Positions 53,261 to 61,721 of a stretch of 64,000 nt of DNA are shown piece by piece. The position numbers and the translations under genes are program-made. The stretch's first letter is position 1. Each line of letters opens with the position of its first letter. Below the pieces are notes generated by a model, which saw nothing but the letters and a program-made list of their open reading frames with translations, did not search any database and was not told the origin of the DNA. This stretch comes from Pelagophyceae sp. CCMP2097 (Eukaryota; Sar; Pelagophyceae), in NCBI GenBank assembly GCA_026770575.1, contig MU657174.1, positions 55,245 through 119,244 on the forward strand, read 5' to 3'.

Positions 53261-56014
53261 ATGTCGTGGGGTGGGCTGCCGCCGAACTGGGCCGCGACGA
53301 AGGACCCGTCGTCGGGCAAGGAGTACTACTACAACACGGTGACCCAAGCCGTGTCATGGGAAAAGCCCGTGGCGGCGCCGGCCCAGCCCATGGCGTAATC
53401 ACAACCACCCGCGCGGCGTCCCGCGATTTTGACACGGAGCCGGGGCGCGGCCGCCGGGGCGGGCCCGCGCGGCAAAAACAGCCGGGCGCCTCGCGGACGT
53501 CTCGGGGAACGAGCCTTAGCGTTTCCGACGCGCCCCCACATGCTTCGCGACAGGCCTAGCCCGTACGCGCAGCCGGCGCAGTCGTACGGCCAGCAGCCGG
53601 CCTACGGCCAGCAGCCGGCCTACGGCCAGCAGTCGTACGGCGGCGGGCAGTCATATGGACAGCAGTGAGCACGCCTTGCCTTGAAACCCGCCGGGGACGG
53701 CCTCCGACGGCCCACATGCGATGGACGCGTCCACGGACGCGCGACCTTTGCGCGGATCTCGACCGCGCGCTTTCTGCACGGAAGTGCTCGAAGCCGCAGT
53801 TCGGCATTCAAGCTCTGGCACGCCATCGGGGCCTCACGGCGGCCGCCCTCGGCTCCGAGCCCCTCGAGCCCTAAATCTTCGCCCCGCGGCGCCGCTCCGC
53901 AAAAGCGCGAAGCCGCGCCCCGGCGGCGACGGCGGCCCGCCCCGATTCGCCGCGCTTTATCGCGCCCAAAAAGGTCTGCCGCGCCGTCCTACAGCGGAGG
54001 CGGCGGCGGCTACGGCGGAGGCGGCGGCTTCGGCGGAGGCGGAGGCGGGCAGTACGGCGGCGGCGGCGGCGGGCAGTACGGCGGCGGCGGCGGCGGCGGC
54101 AGCATGCCCCGGGGGAAGAAGGCCGCGCTCCGCGGCCAGGACCTTTCCTCCCTCCCGAAGGACGTCAACGCCGCGCCGGCCGTCCTCGCCTGGCGCGAGA
54201 AGCACGAGATCACCGTCGCCGGTGAGCAGCTCTTTCTGTTTGGGTCCCTAGAAATTCATCGATGACGAGAAAGTCTGACCCTCGACGGCTCATCGGCCCA
54301 CCATGGGAGGTCAAATATCAAATAAACTGCTGAGATGAATCTTGGGGCCGATTCGAATGCCTGCGACAAATGCCTCTGCCCACTCTTGAATTTAGGCGGC
54401 TGCTCGGTGTGCTACGAGGGGTTTGACGACGCGCCGCTGCCGCAGCGGCTGCTGCAGGCTTTGAAGGGCGCGGGCTTCCCGGCGCCGTCTGCCATCCAGG
54501 GCCAGGCGTGGCCGCCGGCGCTGGAGCAGCGCGACGTGATCGGCGTCGCGAAGACTGGTTCTGGCAAGACGCTGGGCTTCCTCGTGCCCGCGTTCAAGCT
54601 GCTCTGCGGCGACGGTTCGTCGCCCAAGATGGCCGTGCCGAATTCGCCCTTCGTCCTCGTCCTGGCGCCGACGCGCGAGCTGGCGACGCAGATTGCCGAC
54701 GAGGCGGTGAAGTTTGGACGACAGCTGGGCGTGTCCTGCGTCTGCTGCTACGGCGGCGCGCCAAAGGGCCCGCAGCTCGGGTCGCTCAGGCGCGGGTCGC
54801 ACATCGTCATCGCGACGCCGGGCCGCTTGAACGACTTCCTCGAGGGGCAGCAGGTCTCGATGGCGCACGTGGAATACTTGGTCTTCGACGAGGCGGACCG
54901 CATGCTCGACATGGGCTTCGAGCCCCAAATCCGCAAGGTCGTGGCCAAGTGCCCCGACGACCGCCAGACGCTGTTCTTCACCGCGACGTGGCCGCGCGAG
55001 GTGCGCAAGCTGGCGTCGGAGTTTCTGGCCAACCCCGTCGTGATTTACGTCGGCGACACTTCGGGCGCTTTAAAAGTCAACAAGGACGTGACGCAAAACG
55101 TGTACGTCACGGACGGCCGCGGCACGTCCATGAAGGACCGCCTCTTAGCGGACGTGGTCCGCCGCGAGACGCAGGACAACGCCGCGACGTACGGCGGCCC
55201 GTGCCGCATCATCATCTTCTGCAACGCCAAGCGCCAGTGCGACACGCTGGAGCGGCAGCTGCCGCAGCAGGTCGGCATGCGCTGCGCGGCCATGCACGGC
55301 GACAAGGACCAGATGCAGCGGACTCAGACGATTAACATGTTCAAAGCGGGCCAGTGCCCCGTGCTCATCGCCACCGACGTGGCCGCGCGGGGCTTGGACA
55401 TCAAGGAGGTGCGCGCGGTGATCAACTACGATTTCCCCAACTCGGTCGAGGACTACGTCCACCGCGTGGGCCGCACGGGCCGCGCGGGGGCCAAGGGCAA
55501 CGCGCACACTTTTTTCACGCCTAAGGACGACCGCAAGGCCTCGGCGCTCATCAAGCTCCTCCAGGAGGCCGGCGCCGCCGTGCCCGACGAGCTCGCCGCC
55601 ATGGCCTCGGGCGCCTCGCAGTTCAACGGCTCGTCGATGAAGTTCGGCGGCGGCGGCGGCGGCTACGGCGGCGGCGGCGGCGGCGGCAGGAGCGGCGGCG
55701 GCGGGGGCAGCTACGGCGGCGGCGGCGGCGGCGGCAGCTACGGTGGCGGCGGCGGCAGCTACGGTGGCGGCGGCGGCAGCTTTGGCGGCGGCGGCATGGG
55801 CGGCGGCATGGGCGGCGGCCTGTCCGCGGCGCCGCCCGGGTCGTTTCCCGCGCCGTCGGCGTCGGGCGGCGGCGACGCGCCCGAGCGGAGTCGGCGCCGC
55901 GACGAAGACGAAGACCGCTCGCGGCGCCGCCGCGACGACGACGACGACAAGTCGCGCGACCGCTCCCGCCGCGACCGCTCGCGCTCGCGCGACCGCTCGC
56001 GCCGCGACCGCTAA
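53261..56014 (+). CDS. WW-domain DEAD-box RNA helicase (DDX5/DBP2-type)
   Basis: Exons 53261-53394, 53560-53664, 53974-54221 and 54396-56014; 701 residues in phase. The introns (165, 309 and 174 nt) are the longest set in the window. N-terminus: WW domain LPPNWAATKDPSSGKEYYYNTVTQAVSWEKP. Then QQPAYGQQ repeats and a Gly/Tyr-rich stretch. Helicase core: Q motif GFPAPSAIQGQAWP, motif I AKTGSGKT, Ia PTRELATQI, Ib TPGRL, II DEAD, III TAT in FFTATWPREVRKLA, V TDVAARGLDIK, VI HRVGRTGRAG. C-terminus: long GGGGYGGGG tracts then an RS/RD tail. The WW plus DEAD plus RGG/RS plan matches the plant RH14/RH46 group of the p68 family, which act in nuclear RNA processing and decay. Motif III reads TAT instead of the usual SAT. 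Confidence 0.92.
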
Positions 56015-56422: not shown

Positions 56423-59400
56423 ATGGAGGCCTTCGAGACGCGGCTGGTGGTCCACGGGGCCTCGGCGGCGTTGCGCAGCTCGCATCGCAGCTCGACGCGC
56501 TCCTCGACGAGCTCGTCGCGGGCCTTGCCCCAGGCCTTTTCCATGATCCGCTACGGGCGGCTCTGGCGCAAGCTCCAGGCACAGGGCTGGGAGCTCCGGT
56601 CCGGGTCGGGCCTCTCGAATTTCACCTGGGTCGCGGCGACGCACACGCGGCTGCCGGCAAAGGAGGTCTACAAGCGCGGTCTGGAGGGCCGGGACGTCTT
56701 CTACTCGCAGCGCGCCGTCTTCGACTTTGCCATCGACCAGGGCTGGGTCACGGACGAAGACGACGAGTCCGACGTTTCGGCCGACGAAATGCGCCCGCCG
56801 CCGCGACTCACCGCCGGCGCGCCAAACGCAAAGCCGCCGCCGCGCGCCCGAGGCCCGCCGGCTGGCGCAGCGCCGCAAGCCAGAGGCGGCCCGCCGGCCG
56901 GCGCGCTGGACACCAAGCCGCCGCCGCGCGCTCGAGGCCCGCCGGCCGGCGCGGCGCCCGACGCCCGAGGCGGCCCGCCGGCCGGCGCGGCGCCACACGG
57001 TTCCGCGGCCGCCGGCGCCCCGCCCCGCGCGCGCGGCCGCCGGCGCCCCGCCCCGATCCGCGTCGCCCCGGCCGCCGCGGTGCATGCCAATCTTCCGGTC
57101 GTCCCCGCGGCAATGTCGGCCTCCGAGGCCGCGGCGCCCCTGCAGCCGCTGCCCAGGGCGTGTAAGAGCCTCGCGCCCAAGGCGCCCGCCGACGAGGGCG
57201 TCTCGCGCGAGCGGCCGCCGCGGCTCAACCTCGCTGCCGACGGCTGGAGCGACCGAGGGGCGGCGTCGACGACGACGCTGGCTCTGGCGCGCCCGGCGTG
57301 GATGTCGGCAGTGCGGCGTCGCGGCGAAGGCGCACTGGCGCAGCTCGCGGAAGAGGACGAACGCCTCGCGCGGCTCGTCGACCTGGGCCGCGCGATGCGC
57401 GTGCAGAAGTTGCACTGGGGGCTGGGGAGGCTCCCGAGCGCCGACGCAAAGGTCCGCGTGCTCGCACAGCGCCTCCGCGACGCCGGCGCGACGTTCCAAG
57501 GCGACGTGCCGTCGCAGCGCGACGTCGACGACGCCGAGGCGCGGTCGCAGAGCGCGGGGGCGACGCCCATCGTGCCGCTGCAGCAGCTCTCGCTCGTCGA
57601 CGCCGCTGTGAAAAAGTCGCGCTACCGCGGCGTCAGCTGGAACCGGCAAAGGAAAAAGTGGTGGGCAACGATTTACGTCAAGGGCAAGACTTACCATCTC
57701 GGCACGTTCGACGACGAGGTCGCGACCGCGCAGGCGTACGACGTGGCCGCCGCGCGGCACGGCAAGGAGCTCAATTTTCCCGACGGCGCCTCGGCCAACG
57801 CCTCCGCCGCCGCCAACGCCGCCGCCGCCGCCGCCGCCGCGTCGTCGCGGAGCACGCCGCCTCCGCCGCCCACGTCGCTCGACCCCGTCTCTGCAAGGTC
57901 GGTCTACCGCGGCCTCGGCTGGCACCGCAAAAGGAAGATGTGGCAGGCGAGGATCATGGTCAATCGCACGCTCGTATACATCGGCTCGTACGCCAGCGAG
58001 GTCGATGCCGCGCGGGCGTACGACGCTGTTGCCGCGCGGCACGGCCAGGTGCTCAACTTTCCCGCCGACGCCGAGGCGCAGCCCGCCAAGCGGCGACGCG
58101 TGGTCAAGGCCGAGAAGGCCGCGCGGTCGGATGCCGCGCGGTCGCCGCCGCCGCCGCGGCCGGACGCCGCCCTGCGGTCGGAGGCGCCGTGGGGCCTCGG
58201 CGCGCTGGCGAACGCGCTCGCGAAACTCGGCGGGAAGAACACCATCGACCTCCTCTTCGGCTGGCGCGCCGGCAGGGGTAGGTCGGGCGAGGCGTTCCGG
58301 TCGCCGTGCGGCAGGTCCTTTGCGAGCGTCGATGCTGTTGCGGCGTTCCTGGACCTGGACGCGGGCGGCGCCGACGGCAGCGTCTGGGAGCGGTGCTACG
58401 CCGGCGGTTGCGTCGTGCGCACGGAGACAACGCAGCGGACGACGCTGGCGCGCCTCGCCGTCGGCGGCGCGCTGCTGCCGCAGTTCTTCGACACCGTCGA
58501 GACCGCCGCCGACGCGCTGCGCCTCTGCGCGGCGCGGCAGGTCTGCGTCTGCGGCCGCCGCGACGACGGCCGGGACTACGTCGCCTGCGCCGCCGGCGCA
58601 GAGGGGCGCTGCCGCGGCCGCGTCCACCGCCGCTGCGTCGGACTCGCCGACTGCGAGGCCGTGCCCGCGGGCTACCGCTGCCCGCTCGACGCGCCCGGCG
58701 CCGGCAGCGCGGTGTCGGCTTTCGCCGACGAGGGCCCGCTCGTCGCCGGCGCCGCGGCGGCAGGCCCGAGGCGGCAGACGTCTTCGCACGCGAACAAGTG
58801 CGCCGCCGTCGCCGCCATGCTCGCGCCGGGCGCGGGCGCCGACGCGTCGCGCCTCGGCTGCCTCGTCTTCAACCGCTCGCTGCTCTGGGTCGGCTGCGTC
58901 ATCGACGCGCGCGCGCCGTGCGCCGCGAGCGAGGCGCTCGCGACGGAGATGCTGGTGCAGGACGACGACGGCGAGGCGCCGCCGGAGCTGGTCCGCCTCC
59001 TCGGCGAGGAGAAAGCCTGCGGCTACAGCGTCGCGCCGCGCGGCGCCACCGAGCCGTGGGCGCTCGCGGCGTGGGCGGAGAGCAACGACGAGCGCCTCGC
59101 TCGGAAGCGCTGGGGCGCCTCGAAGTACGCGCGCGCCTGGAACCTCTCTTTGCAAATCGCCGCCGACCTGGAGAAGCTGCCGTCCAACAAACAACGCCTC
59201 GCCAAGGTCGCGGCCCTCGACGCCGACGAAGATCTCCACGCCGACGCCGACGCCGACGTCGACGGCGACGTCGAAGGCGCGGCCGAGGTCTGGCCCGCCG
59301 CAGCGCCGCCCGGGCGGACGACGCGGTCGAGCACCGTCGTCGACTCGGACGGCGACTCGGCGTCGGAGTCGGACGCCGACGCGCCAGACGCGCACGCCGG

Positions 59401-60784
59401 GGCGCGCGCCAAGGTCCAGCGCCTCTACGGGGGCCTGTCTCCGGCAGCGCGCGAGGCGTTTGGGTCTTTGGTCTTCGACACGAAGCAAAGCTGGGTCGGC
59501 TGCGTCGTCGACGCGGGTCTTGTGTGCTCGAAGAAGCGCAACGGCGCGCTCGCATCCGAGGTGATGCGCAAGGTGCGCGGCGCCGAGGCGCCGCACCTCG
59601 TGCGCTTGCTGAGCTGCGACCTCGCCGAGGGCTTCGAGGTCGTCCGGCGGTGCGACACCGTCGCCTTTGACGCCGCGGCCTTTGCCGCCGGCGAAGAGGC
59701 CAAGTGCTCGGCGCACTGGGCGAAGAATCCAAAGTACGCGAACAAGTGGCTGAAAGCGCTCGAGGCTGCGCGCCGCCTCGAACGCCTCGAGTCCAACTCC
59801 GCGCGGCTGGCCGACGTCGACGCGGGCGACGCCACCGCGCAGGTGCGCCGCTCCGTGGCCTTCCGCGAGCCGCTCCGCGAGCCGGTGGAGCGGCCGCCGG
59901 CGGAGCCGTACGCGCCGCGCCGCGGCGTCGCTGCGTGCCCCCTCGTCGGCCGCGTACTCCTCCGGACACCGTGCGAGGACGAGGACGAAGACGATATGCC
60001 GCTGCTCCTGCGGTGCGTCGGCGTCGTCGCGCGGCACCCGCCGTGCGAATTCGACGACGACGAAGAAGACATTGACGTCGTCTGCGTCGGGCTCGTCGGC
60101 GCCGGCGCGGGCGACGCGAATTACGTGCTGCCGCTGTATGCGGCGCGCGAGGCGGTGCGGAACCGCGAGTCCGCCGAGGCGGCGGCGCTGCAGCGGCGGC
60201 AGCGCTCGGGCGTGCGCTTCCGCTACCGTCCGTCGGGTCCCGAAAGTGACTGCGGCGCCTGCCGCTTCTGCCGCGACCGGCCGAGCCGCGGCGGCGCGGG
60301 CACGCTGCGGCGGGCCTGCGAGCTGCAGCAAAGGCAGCGCCTCGCAACGCTCATCGACGACATCTTCCCAGAGGCGCACACCGGCCAAGGCGCGCGGCCG
60401 CGCAAGCGAGAGGCGCCCGGCATAAACGCGCGGCCGCGGAAGCGGCGCAAGAGAACCGTCGGCGGCGACGTCGAAGACGTCGCGCCCGTCGGCGACGTCG
60501 ACGCGCCCGTCGGCGGCGCCGTCGACGGCGTTTCCGACGGCGGCGGCGCGGCGGCGGCCGCCGGCGAGAGCGCGACTTGCGCCATCTGCCAAGACGACCT
60601 CGACGGCGGCGCGGCCGCGCTGTCGTGCGGGCACTCGTTCCACGGAGAGTGCCTCGACGCCCTGGTCCGGTGCAACAAGCTCGCGGCCCAGACGAGGAGG
60701 TCCGCCTACGCGCGCTGCCCGCTCTGCCGCAAATCGTCGCGCCACCGCGGCGCCGCATTCGCGCACGCCGCCCTCGAGGCGTGA
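56423..60784 (+). CDS. AP2x2-PHD-CXXC-RING multidomain nuclear protein
   Basis: Single exon, 1,453 residues from ATG at 56423. In order: residues about 40-115, a stramenopile-type domain (RYGRLWRKLQAQGWELRSG ... YKRGLEGRDVFYSQRAVFDF); 130-220, Pro/Ala/Gly/Arg repeats; about 397-451, AP2/ERF domain 1 (SRYRGVSWNRQRKKWWATIY ... YHLGTFDDEVATAQAYDVAA); about 493-547, AP2 domain 2 (YRGLGWHRKRKMWQARIM ... ARAYDAVAARHG); about 706-760, a PHD-like Cys/His cluster (CVCGRRDDGRDYVAC ... HRRCVGLADC). Then an unknown module in two copies, about 812-925 and 1011-1130 (GCLVFNRSLLWVGCVIDA / GSLVFDTKQSWVGCVVDA). About 1275-1305 is a zf-CXXC (DCGACRFCRDRPSRGGAG TLRRAC), expected to bind unmethylated CpG. About 1385-1440 is a RING finger (CAICQDDL ... 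CGHSFHGECLDAL ... CPLCRKS). Inferred role: DNA-binding chromatin regulator with E3 ligase activity. Confidence 0.85.
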   Translation: MEAFETRLVVHGASAALRSSHRSSTRSSTSSSRALPQAFSMIRYGRLWRKLQAQGWELRSGSGLSNFTWVAATHTRLPAKEVYKRGLEGRDVFYSQRAVFDFAIDQGWVTDEDDESDVSADEMRPPPRLTAGAPNAKPPPRARGPPAGAAPQARGGPPAGALDTKPPPRARGPPAGAAPDARGGPPAGAAPHGSAAAGAPPRARGRRRPAPIRVAPAAAVHANLPVVPAAMSASEAAAPLQPLPRACKSLAPKAPADEGVSRERPPRLNLAADGWSDRGAASTTTLALARPAWMSAVRRRGEGALAQLAEEDERLARLVDLGRAMRVQKLHWGLGRLPSADAKVRVLAQRLRDAGATFQGDVPSQRDVDDAEARSQSAGATPIVPLQQLSLVDAAVKKSRYRGVSWNRQRKKWWATIYVKGKTYHLGTFDDEVATAQAYDVAAARHGKELNFPDGASANASAAANAAAAAAAASSRSTPPPPPTSLDPVSARSVYRGLGWHRKRKMWQARIMVNRTLVYIGSYASEVDAARAYDAVAARHGQVLNFPADAEAQPAKRRRVVKAEKAARSDAARSPPPPRPDAALRSEAPWGLGALANALAKLGGKNTIDLLFGWRAGRGRSGEAFRSPCGRSFASVDAVAAFLDLDAGGADGSVWERCYAGGCVVRTETTQRTTLARLAVGGALLPQFFDTVETAADALRLCAARQVCVCGRRDDGRDYVACAAGAEGRCRGRVHRRCVGLADCEAVPAGYRCPLDAPGAGSAVSAFADEGPLVAGAAAAGPRRQTSSHANKCAAVAAMLAPGAGADASRLGCLVFNRSLLWVGCVIDARAPCAASEALATEMLVQDDDGEAPPELVRLLGEEKACGYSVAPRGATEPWALAAWAESNDERLARKRWGASKYARAWNLSLQIAADLEKLPSNKQRLAKVAALDADEDLHADADADVDGDVEGAAEVWPAAAPPGRTTRSSTVVDSDGDSASESDADAPDAHAGARAKVQRLYGGLSPAAREAFGSLVFDTKQSWVGCVVDAGLVCSKKRNGALASEVMRKVRGAEAPHLVRLLSCDLAEGFEVVRRCDTVAFDAAAFAAGEEAKCSAHWAKNPKYANKWLKALEAARRLERLESNSARLADVDAGDATAQVRRSVAFREPLREPVERPPAEPYAPRRGVAACPLVGRVLLRTPCEDEDEDDMPLLLRCVGVVARHPPCEFDDDEEDIDVVCVGLVGAGAGDANYVLPLYAAREAVRNRESAEAAALQRRQRSGVRFRYRPSGPESDCGACRFCRDRPSRGGAGTLRRACELQQRQRLATLIDDIFPEAHTGQGARPRKREAPGINARPRKRRKRTVGGDVEDVAPVGDVDAPVGGAVDGVSDGGGAAAAAGESATCAICQDDLDGGAAALSCGHSFHGECLDALVRCNKLAAQTRRSAYARCPLCRKSSRHRGAAFAHAALEA

Positions 60785-61721
60785 ACCCGAAAAAGCACGA
60801 CTCCAACCCCAAAGAAGGCACCCTGTCGCAGAAGCAGCCTCCAACCCCACTTTTTGCCACTGCACATACAAACATTGTACGACAATTCATCGCATCCAAA
60901 AGGCCGAGCCCTATACACCGAGTCAGACCGGACCCGGAGTGAGATAATCACTTGATCCAAGAGGCAGCCGAGACTGCAATCAAGGAGCGGCTGATGACAT
61001 TCCTCGGGACTGGACATCCTGTGATTTTTATTACATTACATTAGGAATTCCTAGAGGGTTTTACGGCCTCTAAGCACCTCAACTGGGCTGCTCGATGCTT
61101 AGGGGGCAGGCCAAACGCGCCCGTCAGGGCCACAGCGCCCTCCGACCGCGTCGCAAGACCCGTTTTTTAACACGATGAAACGGCGGAATTGGCCTGCCCC
61201 CTAAGGGTCGTATGGCCTCTCCACACATAAACAAGGCACCTCGATGCTTAGGGGGCAGGCCAAACGCGCCCGTCTGGGCCACAGCCCCCCGACGCCGCCG
61301 TGTTTGGCGATCAGAGTGAGGAGGCCGAGTTATTTGTTGAATTTGTATTTTTGACTTTTCAACGGATAGAACCTATCTAACTGGTAGAAATCAGTCGCGC
61401 GTGAGCACCGGGATCGTCCCCTGGGCGGCATCGACTTCCTTGCGAATTGCGACAAACAAGGGCGTTTGTGTCCCCAGCATTTTTCAAATTTCCCAGACGA
61501 GTGGTTTCGTCTTCGCAAGAAACCTCGAATATTCTAGGAATTCCTACCGTTTCTTGCATTGTATAATCGCGACAAGAGCGAGATGTCGTGGCTCGCGACA
61601 GCGCCGTCGACGACGAGCGCCACGTCTAAATCTCGAAGGAAAGGCGCACACCAAGGCCGGAGATCTATAGTTTTGGCGATCATCTATTTAGCGCGTTGTT
61701 GGCCGCAGTGGGGTCGTGGGC
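60785..61721. other. Repeat-bearing spacer, AT-richer
   Basis: About 940 bp without a convincing gene. It contains the direct/inverted repeat set at 61091-61285 and two copies of the palindrome TAGGAATTCCTA (61043-61054 and 61535-61546). On the minus strand 61399-61490 there is a short coding-like stretch (TQTPLFVAIRKEVDAAQG ending TRD then TGA), possibly a gene remnant. Confidence 0.45.
61091..61285 (+). repeat. 46-bp direct repeat pair with inverted copy of its core
   Basis: CTCGATGCTTAGGGGGCAGG and the following 26 bases occur at 61091-61136 and again at 61240-61285 with a single difference (GTCAGGGCC versus GTCTGGGCC). The core, inverted (GCCTGCCCCCTAAG), lies between them at 61192-61205. 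The spacing between copies is 149 bp. No open frame spans it. Confidence 0.9.

Follow-up and report, generated by a model that had tools for sequence, protein, structure and literature searches.

The window analyzed here, a 64,000-nucleotide stretch of contig MU657174.1 from Pelagophyceae sp. CCMP2097, carries on its plus strand a long open frame that had been described from the letters alone as a single-exon AP2-AP2-PHD-CXXC-RING protein, and both the frame and its coordinates were borne out. The features that we assign to the frame are as follows.

56423..60784, plus strand: single open frame, 1,453 amino acids, ATG to TGA
56543, plus strand: alternative start (Met41) within this frame
56543..56752, plus strand: N-terminal segment, residues 41 to 110; looks globular on inspection, with no accepted Pfam family
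56753..57112, plus strand: linker, residues 111 to 230, mostly Pro/Ala/Gly/Arg, with an 84-base tandem repeat of 2.1 copies
57611..57781, plus strand: AP2 domain 1, residues 397 to 453; Pfam and structure match
57893..58063, plus strand: AP2 domain 2, residues 491 to 547; Pfam and structure match; shares 28 of 55 residues with domain 1
58544..58690, plus strand: PHD-like finger (C708, C710, C722, C730, H735, C738, C753), with Asp756 at the eighth ligand position
58784..59209, plus strand: tandem domain copy 1, residues 788 to 929; no known family
59390..59818, plus strand: tandem domain copy 2, residues 990 to 1132; no known family
60215..60334, plus strand: degenerate CXXC finger, residues 1265 to 1304; C1277, C1280, C1283, and C1299 (zinc 2) kept
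60575..60736, plus strand: RING-H2 finger, residues 1385 to 1438; PF13639, all eight ligands

The adjacent upstream gene, a DEAD-box helicase at 54335-56014 (DEAD positions 2 to 166 of 167; Helicase_C positions 17 to 110 of 110), is likewise one open frame, so that the lack of introns, which the preliminary description had singled out, is not distinctive. Directly downstream of the AP2-RING frame, at 61055-61289, a stretch of 86 bases is directly repeated with 84% identity and has inverted arms of 29 bases, possibly a small mobile element.

Because an antisense frame of 1,525 codons overlaps 56423-60784, open length alone is weak evidence for coding. The chance of 1,453 stop-free codons, 5e-10 from base composition alone, comes from an estimate that the antisense frame shows to be too simple. 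The GC content of third codon positions is 0.85 to 0.97 in each of fourteen 300-base blocks from 56585, and in every 300-base block from 57185 to the stop it reaches at least 0.88 and exceeds that of the other two positions. Together with the fact that a single frame holds all four kinds of segment (AP2, PHD-like, CXXC-like, RING), this excess supports the plus-strand frame as coding. Eight 150-base windows were flagged for lacking the excess, all inside 56753-57112, a region that may simply be a linker or could hide an intron. An artefact of the gene model, in which very GC-rich DNA lets two or more neighboring genes or an unspliced intron pass for one frame, is highly improbable in our judgment. 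It would fit the antisense frame, which shows that long frames arise easily in this DNA, as well as the codon signature missing from residues 111 to 230 and the two candidate donors found in the frame, one GTRCGT (60013) and one GTRAG (57162). However, the third donor form scanned, GTRAGT, is absent from the frame, and the uniformly high third-position GC from 57185 onward, the common frame of the AP2, PHD, CXXC, and RING segments, and, with the reservation just given, the small chance of so long a stop-free run all speak against it.

Toward the N terminus, residues 41 to 110 gave a sole Pfam match, RsmI_C (11.8 bits; cut-off 27), and reached 1.3 bits against an HMM of the genome's own MBD matches, a score that 4 of 100 shuffles equalled and that we did not count as a match. 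NCBIfam yielded only three matches, of 8 to 10 bits against cut-offs of 999 to 2500, in an Asp/Ser-rich linker.

The AP2 pair, the RING finger, and the layout among relatives

Two AP2 domains and a C-terminal RING, as first described, are well founded. Taken together, the AP2 pair passes PF00847 with 35.2 bits over two stretches (cut-off 33.3), while in the six-frame genome search copy 1 alone stays below that cut-off (30.7 bits) and copy 2 is absent among the matches listed. Residues 403 to 540, which span both copies, match the WRI1 structure 7wq5 (named ethylene-responsive factor) at an E value of 1.1e-7. The RING passes PF13639 with 31.9 bits (cut-off 27.3; positions 2 to 44 of 44) and matches the RING-H2 ligand pattern at 8 of 8 positions. 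DNA binding by the AP2 pair and ubiquitin ligation by the RING-H2 finger, the latter predicted from its eight ligands, are reasonable expectations. Elsewhere in the genome, one contig (G000:C33) holds four single-AP2 frames (L003, L005, L006, and L007) with flanks that look similar by eye; AP2 frames may have expanded locally there.

To our reading, the layout as a whole is unusual. When the whole protein and a C-terminal part were each searched against 5.8 billion proteins, the only match among the 7,983 and 7,992 candidates scored, respectively, was the protein itself; as the candidates were those proteins that share most words with the query, relatives that are distant or crowded out by composition could have escaped. 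The corresponding search with the AP2 part (7,985 candidates scored) found nine other proteins of similar length, three from named green algae, one from a liverwort, and five for which no species is named; the algal and liverwort groups are those that we take the species names to indicate. Their BLASTP matches below an E value of 0.001 lie in or beside the AP2 domains, apart from two P0003 matches that start further upstream (residues 293 and 334), and P0007 and P0010 gave no match below this value. The motif CxxCxxC occurs in none of the nine. Pfam searches of five of them found AP2, with a chromodomain and weaker matches in addition in P0003, and neither RING nor CXXC figures among the domains precomputed for the remaining four. 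What the nine have in common with the window protein is AP2 alone.

Among viral contigs, 88 pattern matches included none that encodes a relative. The genome itself (66.2 Mb in 638 contigs, searched at E values up to 0.001 for AP2 and up to 1 for CXXC) holds at least 8 AP2 and at least 10 CXXC matches, and among the matches listed the window gene is the only place common to both. No paper among the literature matches listed describes an AP2-CXXC-RING protein. The earlier statement that no described family has this combination therefore held within the candidates scored, the viral contigs, and the AP2 relatives, and the AP2-AP2/PHD-like/CXXC-like/RING layout, as read from sequence, appears real and unusual within the searches made, a claim that applies to one genome. 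Since no orthologue was seen, there is no conservation to show selection on the degenerate parts.

The PHD-like finger and a tandem domain

The PHD-like finger bears a weak likeness to its family. With ligands assigned by eye on alignments, it has seven of the eight C4HC3 ligands, and it scores below the PF00628 cut-off of 24 bits both within the whole protein (12.5 bits) and as a 77-residue segment (19.9 bits). In methyl-lysine-reading PHD fingers, a tryptophan precedes the histidine; here, the corresponding position is Arg733. Among solved structures, 1wee, labelled "PHD finger family protein" (E = 0.0052), and BPTF (E = 0.04) match weakly. Ahead of both ranks 7ona (E = 6.8e-7), a designed repeat protein, but we set this match aside as chance, as it is made up of six matches of 3.9 to 5.0 bits each. 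Of the PHD-like finger originally proposed, the resemblance thus stands, whereas the eighth ligand is lost and the family cut-off is not reached, and the best reading is that the finger is degenerate or remodelled.

Between the PHD-like and CXXC-like segments lies a feature absent from the preliminary description, a tandem duplication of about 140 residues. Its copies, residues 788 to 929 and 990 to 1132, are 37% identical, with a local alignment score of 180 against a maximum of 69 in 2,000 shuffles. Neither copy matches any Pfam family at E values up to 10, and a two-sequence profile matched no solved structure at E values up to 10. A likeness to PWWP (PF00855) noticed by eye was rejected: none of the four PWWP matches in the genome is at the window gene, and an HMM of the genome's own PWWP domains scored the copies at -2.3 and -2.4 bits, with 68 and 89 of 100 shuffles as good. 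The same fate met MBD (PF01429), whose second half residues 613 to 644 or so resemble by eye: none of its three genome matches lies here, and an HMM built from these three gave residues 591 to 660 a score of -0.4 bits (15 of 100 shuffles as good). The only solved structures to match residues 590 to 659 were those of peptide amidases (E = 0.65 and 1.5). Structure predictions were poor both for residues 694 to 1453 with single-sequence AlphaFold (mean pLDDT, 40.9) and for tandem copy 1 with a two-sequence alignment (mean pLDDT, 40.2).

A degenerate CXXC finger and its relatives in the genome

The segment that had been called a CXXC finger is, by its sequence, a true relative of the genome's own CXXC fingers. 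An HMM of four complete fingers from this genome, namely, three tandem fingers and L013, scored 38.2 bits for the segment and 34.1 bits for the whole protein, against a best of 13.8 bits among the 999 reported of 1,000 shuffles; L012 and L014, in which the finger is cut short, and the weak matches L016 to L018 were left out of this HMM. Its match to PF02008, confined to positions 18 to 45 of 48, exceeds the cut-off of 26.5 for a 53-residue segment (28.4 bits) and in the six-frame search of the genome (27 bits; seventh of the 10 matches listed) but stays below it in the whole protein (20.9 bits).

What falls away is the finger with eight cysteines and two zinc ions, since only C4 to C7 are present. 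In an alignment with KDM2A that is ungapped from C1 to C7, the first three cysteines are replaced by F1266, R1269, and G1272, and counting from C7 places R1304 at C8; a MAFFT alignment with the genome's own fingers puts a gap before C3 instead and still has no cysteine at C1 to C3 or C8. Excerpts of PMC4642587 describe the CXXC1 finger of MBD1 as having C1, C2, C3, and C8 for the ligands of zinc 1 and C4 to C7 for those of zinc 2. All ligands of zinc 1 are therefore gone, and exactly one zinc site has been lost completely while the other has been kept completely. The idea that the missing first half lies behind an intron was rejected, as no other CxxCxxC occurs in any forward frame of 58401-60300.

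The retained half is closest to the tandem fingers of the same genome. Over 26 residues around C4 to C7, it shares 16 identities with each of these three, compared with 13 for CFP1 and 11 for KDM2A; of the five CXXC fingers in this comparison, the tandem ones are the most similar. Two motifs that matter for CpG binding according to excerpts of PMC3685328 and PMC3032784, KFGG and KQ/RQ, read SRGG and RR here, with the GG and the basic loop kept. Given that the tandem fingers also read xRGG and RR, these replacements need not be decay; however, RR is not universal in this genome, since RK stands in L013, where RGG is missing as well, and RQ in the weak match L018.

The three complete tandem fingers lie in one 594-codon frame (L009; L030:3695-5476, on G000:C3 at about 254194-255975) that scores 101.9 bits, has CXXC as its only Pfam match at E values up to 0.01, and, in contrast to the window protein, carries all eight cysteines in each of its three copies. 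L013 (G000:C3:1233504-1233635, minus strand) is a further complete finger that follows, in the same frame, a segment that by eye resembles a JmjC-type demethylase. The matches L012 and L014 (G000:C71 and C65) stop inside the finger at a similar point after RGG, and the weak matches L016 and L018 (G000:C21; E = 0.24 and 0.72) also end within the finger, in both cases in an intron-like manner; an intron place common to CXXC fingers could date the fingers. The genome also encodes a cytosine DNA methylase with SNF2 in a single open frame of 2,324 codons (L029:2339-9310, on G000:C13), which is a DNMT5-type layout. In three algae, among them the pelagophyte Aureococcus, DNMT5 is reported to go together with heavy methylation of linker DNA (excerpts of PMC9998398). 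Two very similar DNA-methylase-like frames (L020 and L021, on G000:C485 and C192; 24.2 and 23 bits) look by eye like parts of mobile elements.

In the MLL, DNMT1, CGBP/CFP1, or MBD1 fingers covered by excerpts of PMC4642587 and PMC3032784, changes of zinc ligands destabilize the fold or abolish DNA binding and KFGG changes reduce DNA binding; mutating one zinc-binding cysteine already destabilizes CXXC fingers (PMC4642587). With four such cysteines lost, the sensing of CpG methylation that had been suggested for this finger is not supported in that form and, because of these published mutants, is possible but unlikely. It is conceivable that zinc site 2 and the loop, supported by neighboring parts, read unmethylated CpG and steer a ligase to unmethylated AP2 sites. 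The retention of C4 to C7, the GG motif, and the basic loop, the same substitutions (xRGG for KFGG, RR for KQ/RQ) in the complete tandem fingers, and the DNMT5-type frame would be consistent with such a finger, while the effects of zinc-ligand and KFGG changes just cited and the RK and RQ of the other fingers count against it, and we hold it to be quite unlikely. Very unlikely, in our estimate, is also the more specific proposal that a one-zinc CXXC reads unmethylated CpG as part of an AP2 ubiquitin ligase in a lineage with a DNMT5-type methyltransferase; if this were true, one protein would test both DNA sequence and methylation state before ubiquitinating chromatin.

Alternatively, the protein may be an ordinary AP2-AP2 transcription factor that gained a RING, e.g., for its own turnover, with the PHD and CXXC segments as nonfunctional relics of domain shuffling. 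The subthreshold PHD with its incomplete ligands, the absence of zinc site 1, and frames elsewhere in the genome that by eye appear to have two AP2 domains (L001 and L004) are all in line with this. However, free decay would be expected to erode a CXXC segment whose cysteine spacing and loop are unchanged and whose identity to the tandem fingers is that high, and the two copies of the tandem domain have likewise kept their resemblance. We regard this alternative as unlikely, if worth keeping in view.

A putative AP2-targeted ubiquitin ligase

The reading that we favor, while considering it an even call, is that of a nuclear, AP2-targeted RING ubiquitin ligase whose CXXC and PHD fingers are degenerate or remodelled. 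The AP2 pair would bring the protein to particular DNA sites; there the RING would recruit an E2 and ubiquitinate transcription factors or chromatin proteins in the vicinity. In the middle of the protein, the PHD-like finger, the two tandem copies, and what is left of the CXXC finger, with its one zinc site, might offer surfaces for protein or DNA contacts of a non-textbook kind, with the CXXC, kin to complete fingers elsewhere in the genome, presumably having lost its first zinc site later. In favor of this reading, the AP2 pair and the RING pass their Pfam cut-offs, all domains share one frame and one codon-composition signature, the CXXC segment is kin to the genome's own fingers and lacks exactly one zinc site, no other place is on both the AP2 and the CXXC list, and complete CXXC fingers as well as a DNMT5-type frame are present in the genome. 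Against it stand the lack of an orthologue in the searches, scores at or below the cut-offs for AP2 copy 1, CXXC, and PHD, the poor structure predictions, and the intron that the linker at 56753-57112 could conceal.

Chromatin- or DNA-reading modules are joined to a RING E3 in UHRF1 and the plant VIM/ORTHRUS proteins, which combine PHD, SRA, and RING, and the window protein resembles them in uniting such modules with a RING in one polypeptide. UHRF1 itself carries SRA and RING according to literature excerpts, whereas the window protein has an AP2 pair and a CXXC remnant in place of the methyl-DNA reader. Neither SRA nor Tudor is among the 14 Pfam families listed for it at E values up to 10, a search in which the HMMER filters drop most very weak matches, and the pairing of SRA with RING that marks the UHRF1 family was not found in the window protein. 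FBXL19 and KDM2A/KDM2B combine CXXC and PHD fingers with an F-box and LRR and have ubiquitin-ligase function. The likeness to these lies in CXXC and PHD occurring with a ligase function, which in the window protein is a prediction; the differences are a RING instead of F-box and LRR, the additional AP2 domains, a CXXC without zinc site 1, and a PHD located far before the CXXC. AINTEGUMENTA represents the plant AP2 subfamily with two AP2 domains, and the tandem AP2 pair is shared with this subfamily (WRI1, AINTEGUMENTA), while in comparison with the nine AP2 relatives, RING and CXXC are found on the window protein only.

UHRF1 and FBXL19 use general marks. A ubiquitin ligase aimed by AP2 domains, if true, would bring ubiquitin to chromatin by another route than these, and such a DNA-targeted ligase may be confined to one lineage. 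The loss of exactly one of the two zinc sites, in turn, would offer a natural test of whether half a CXXC finger folds and binds.
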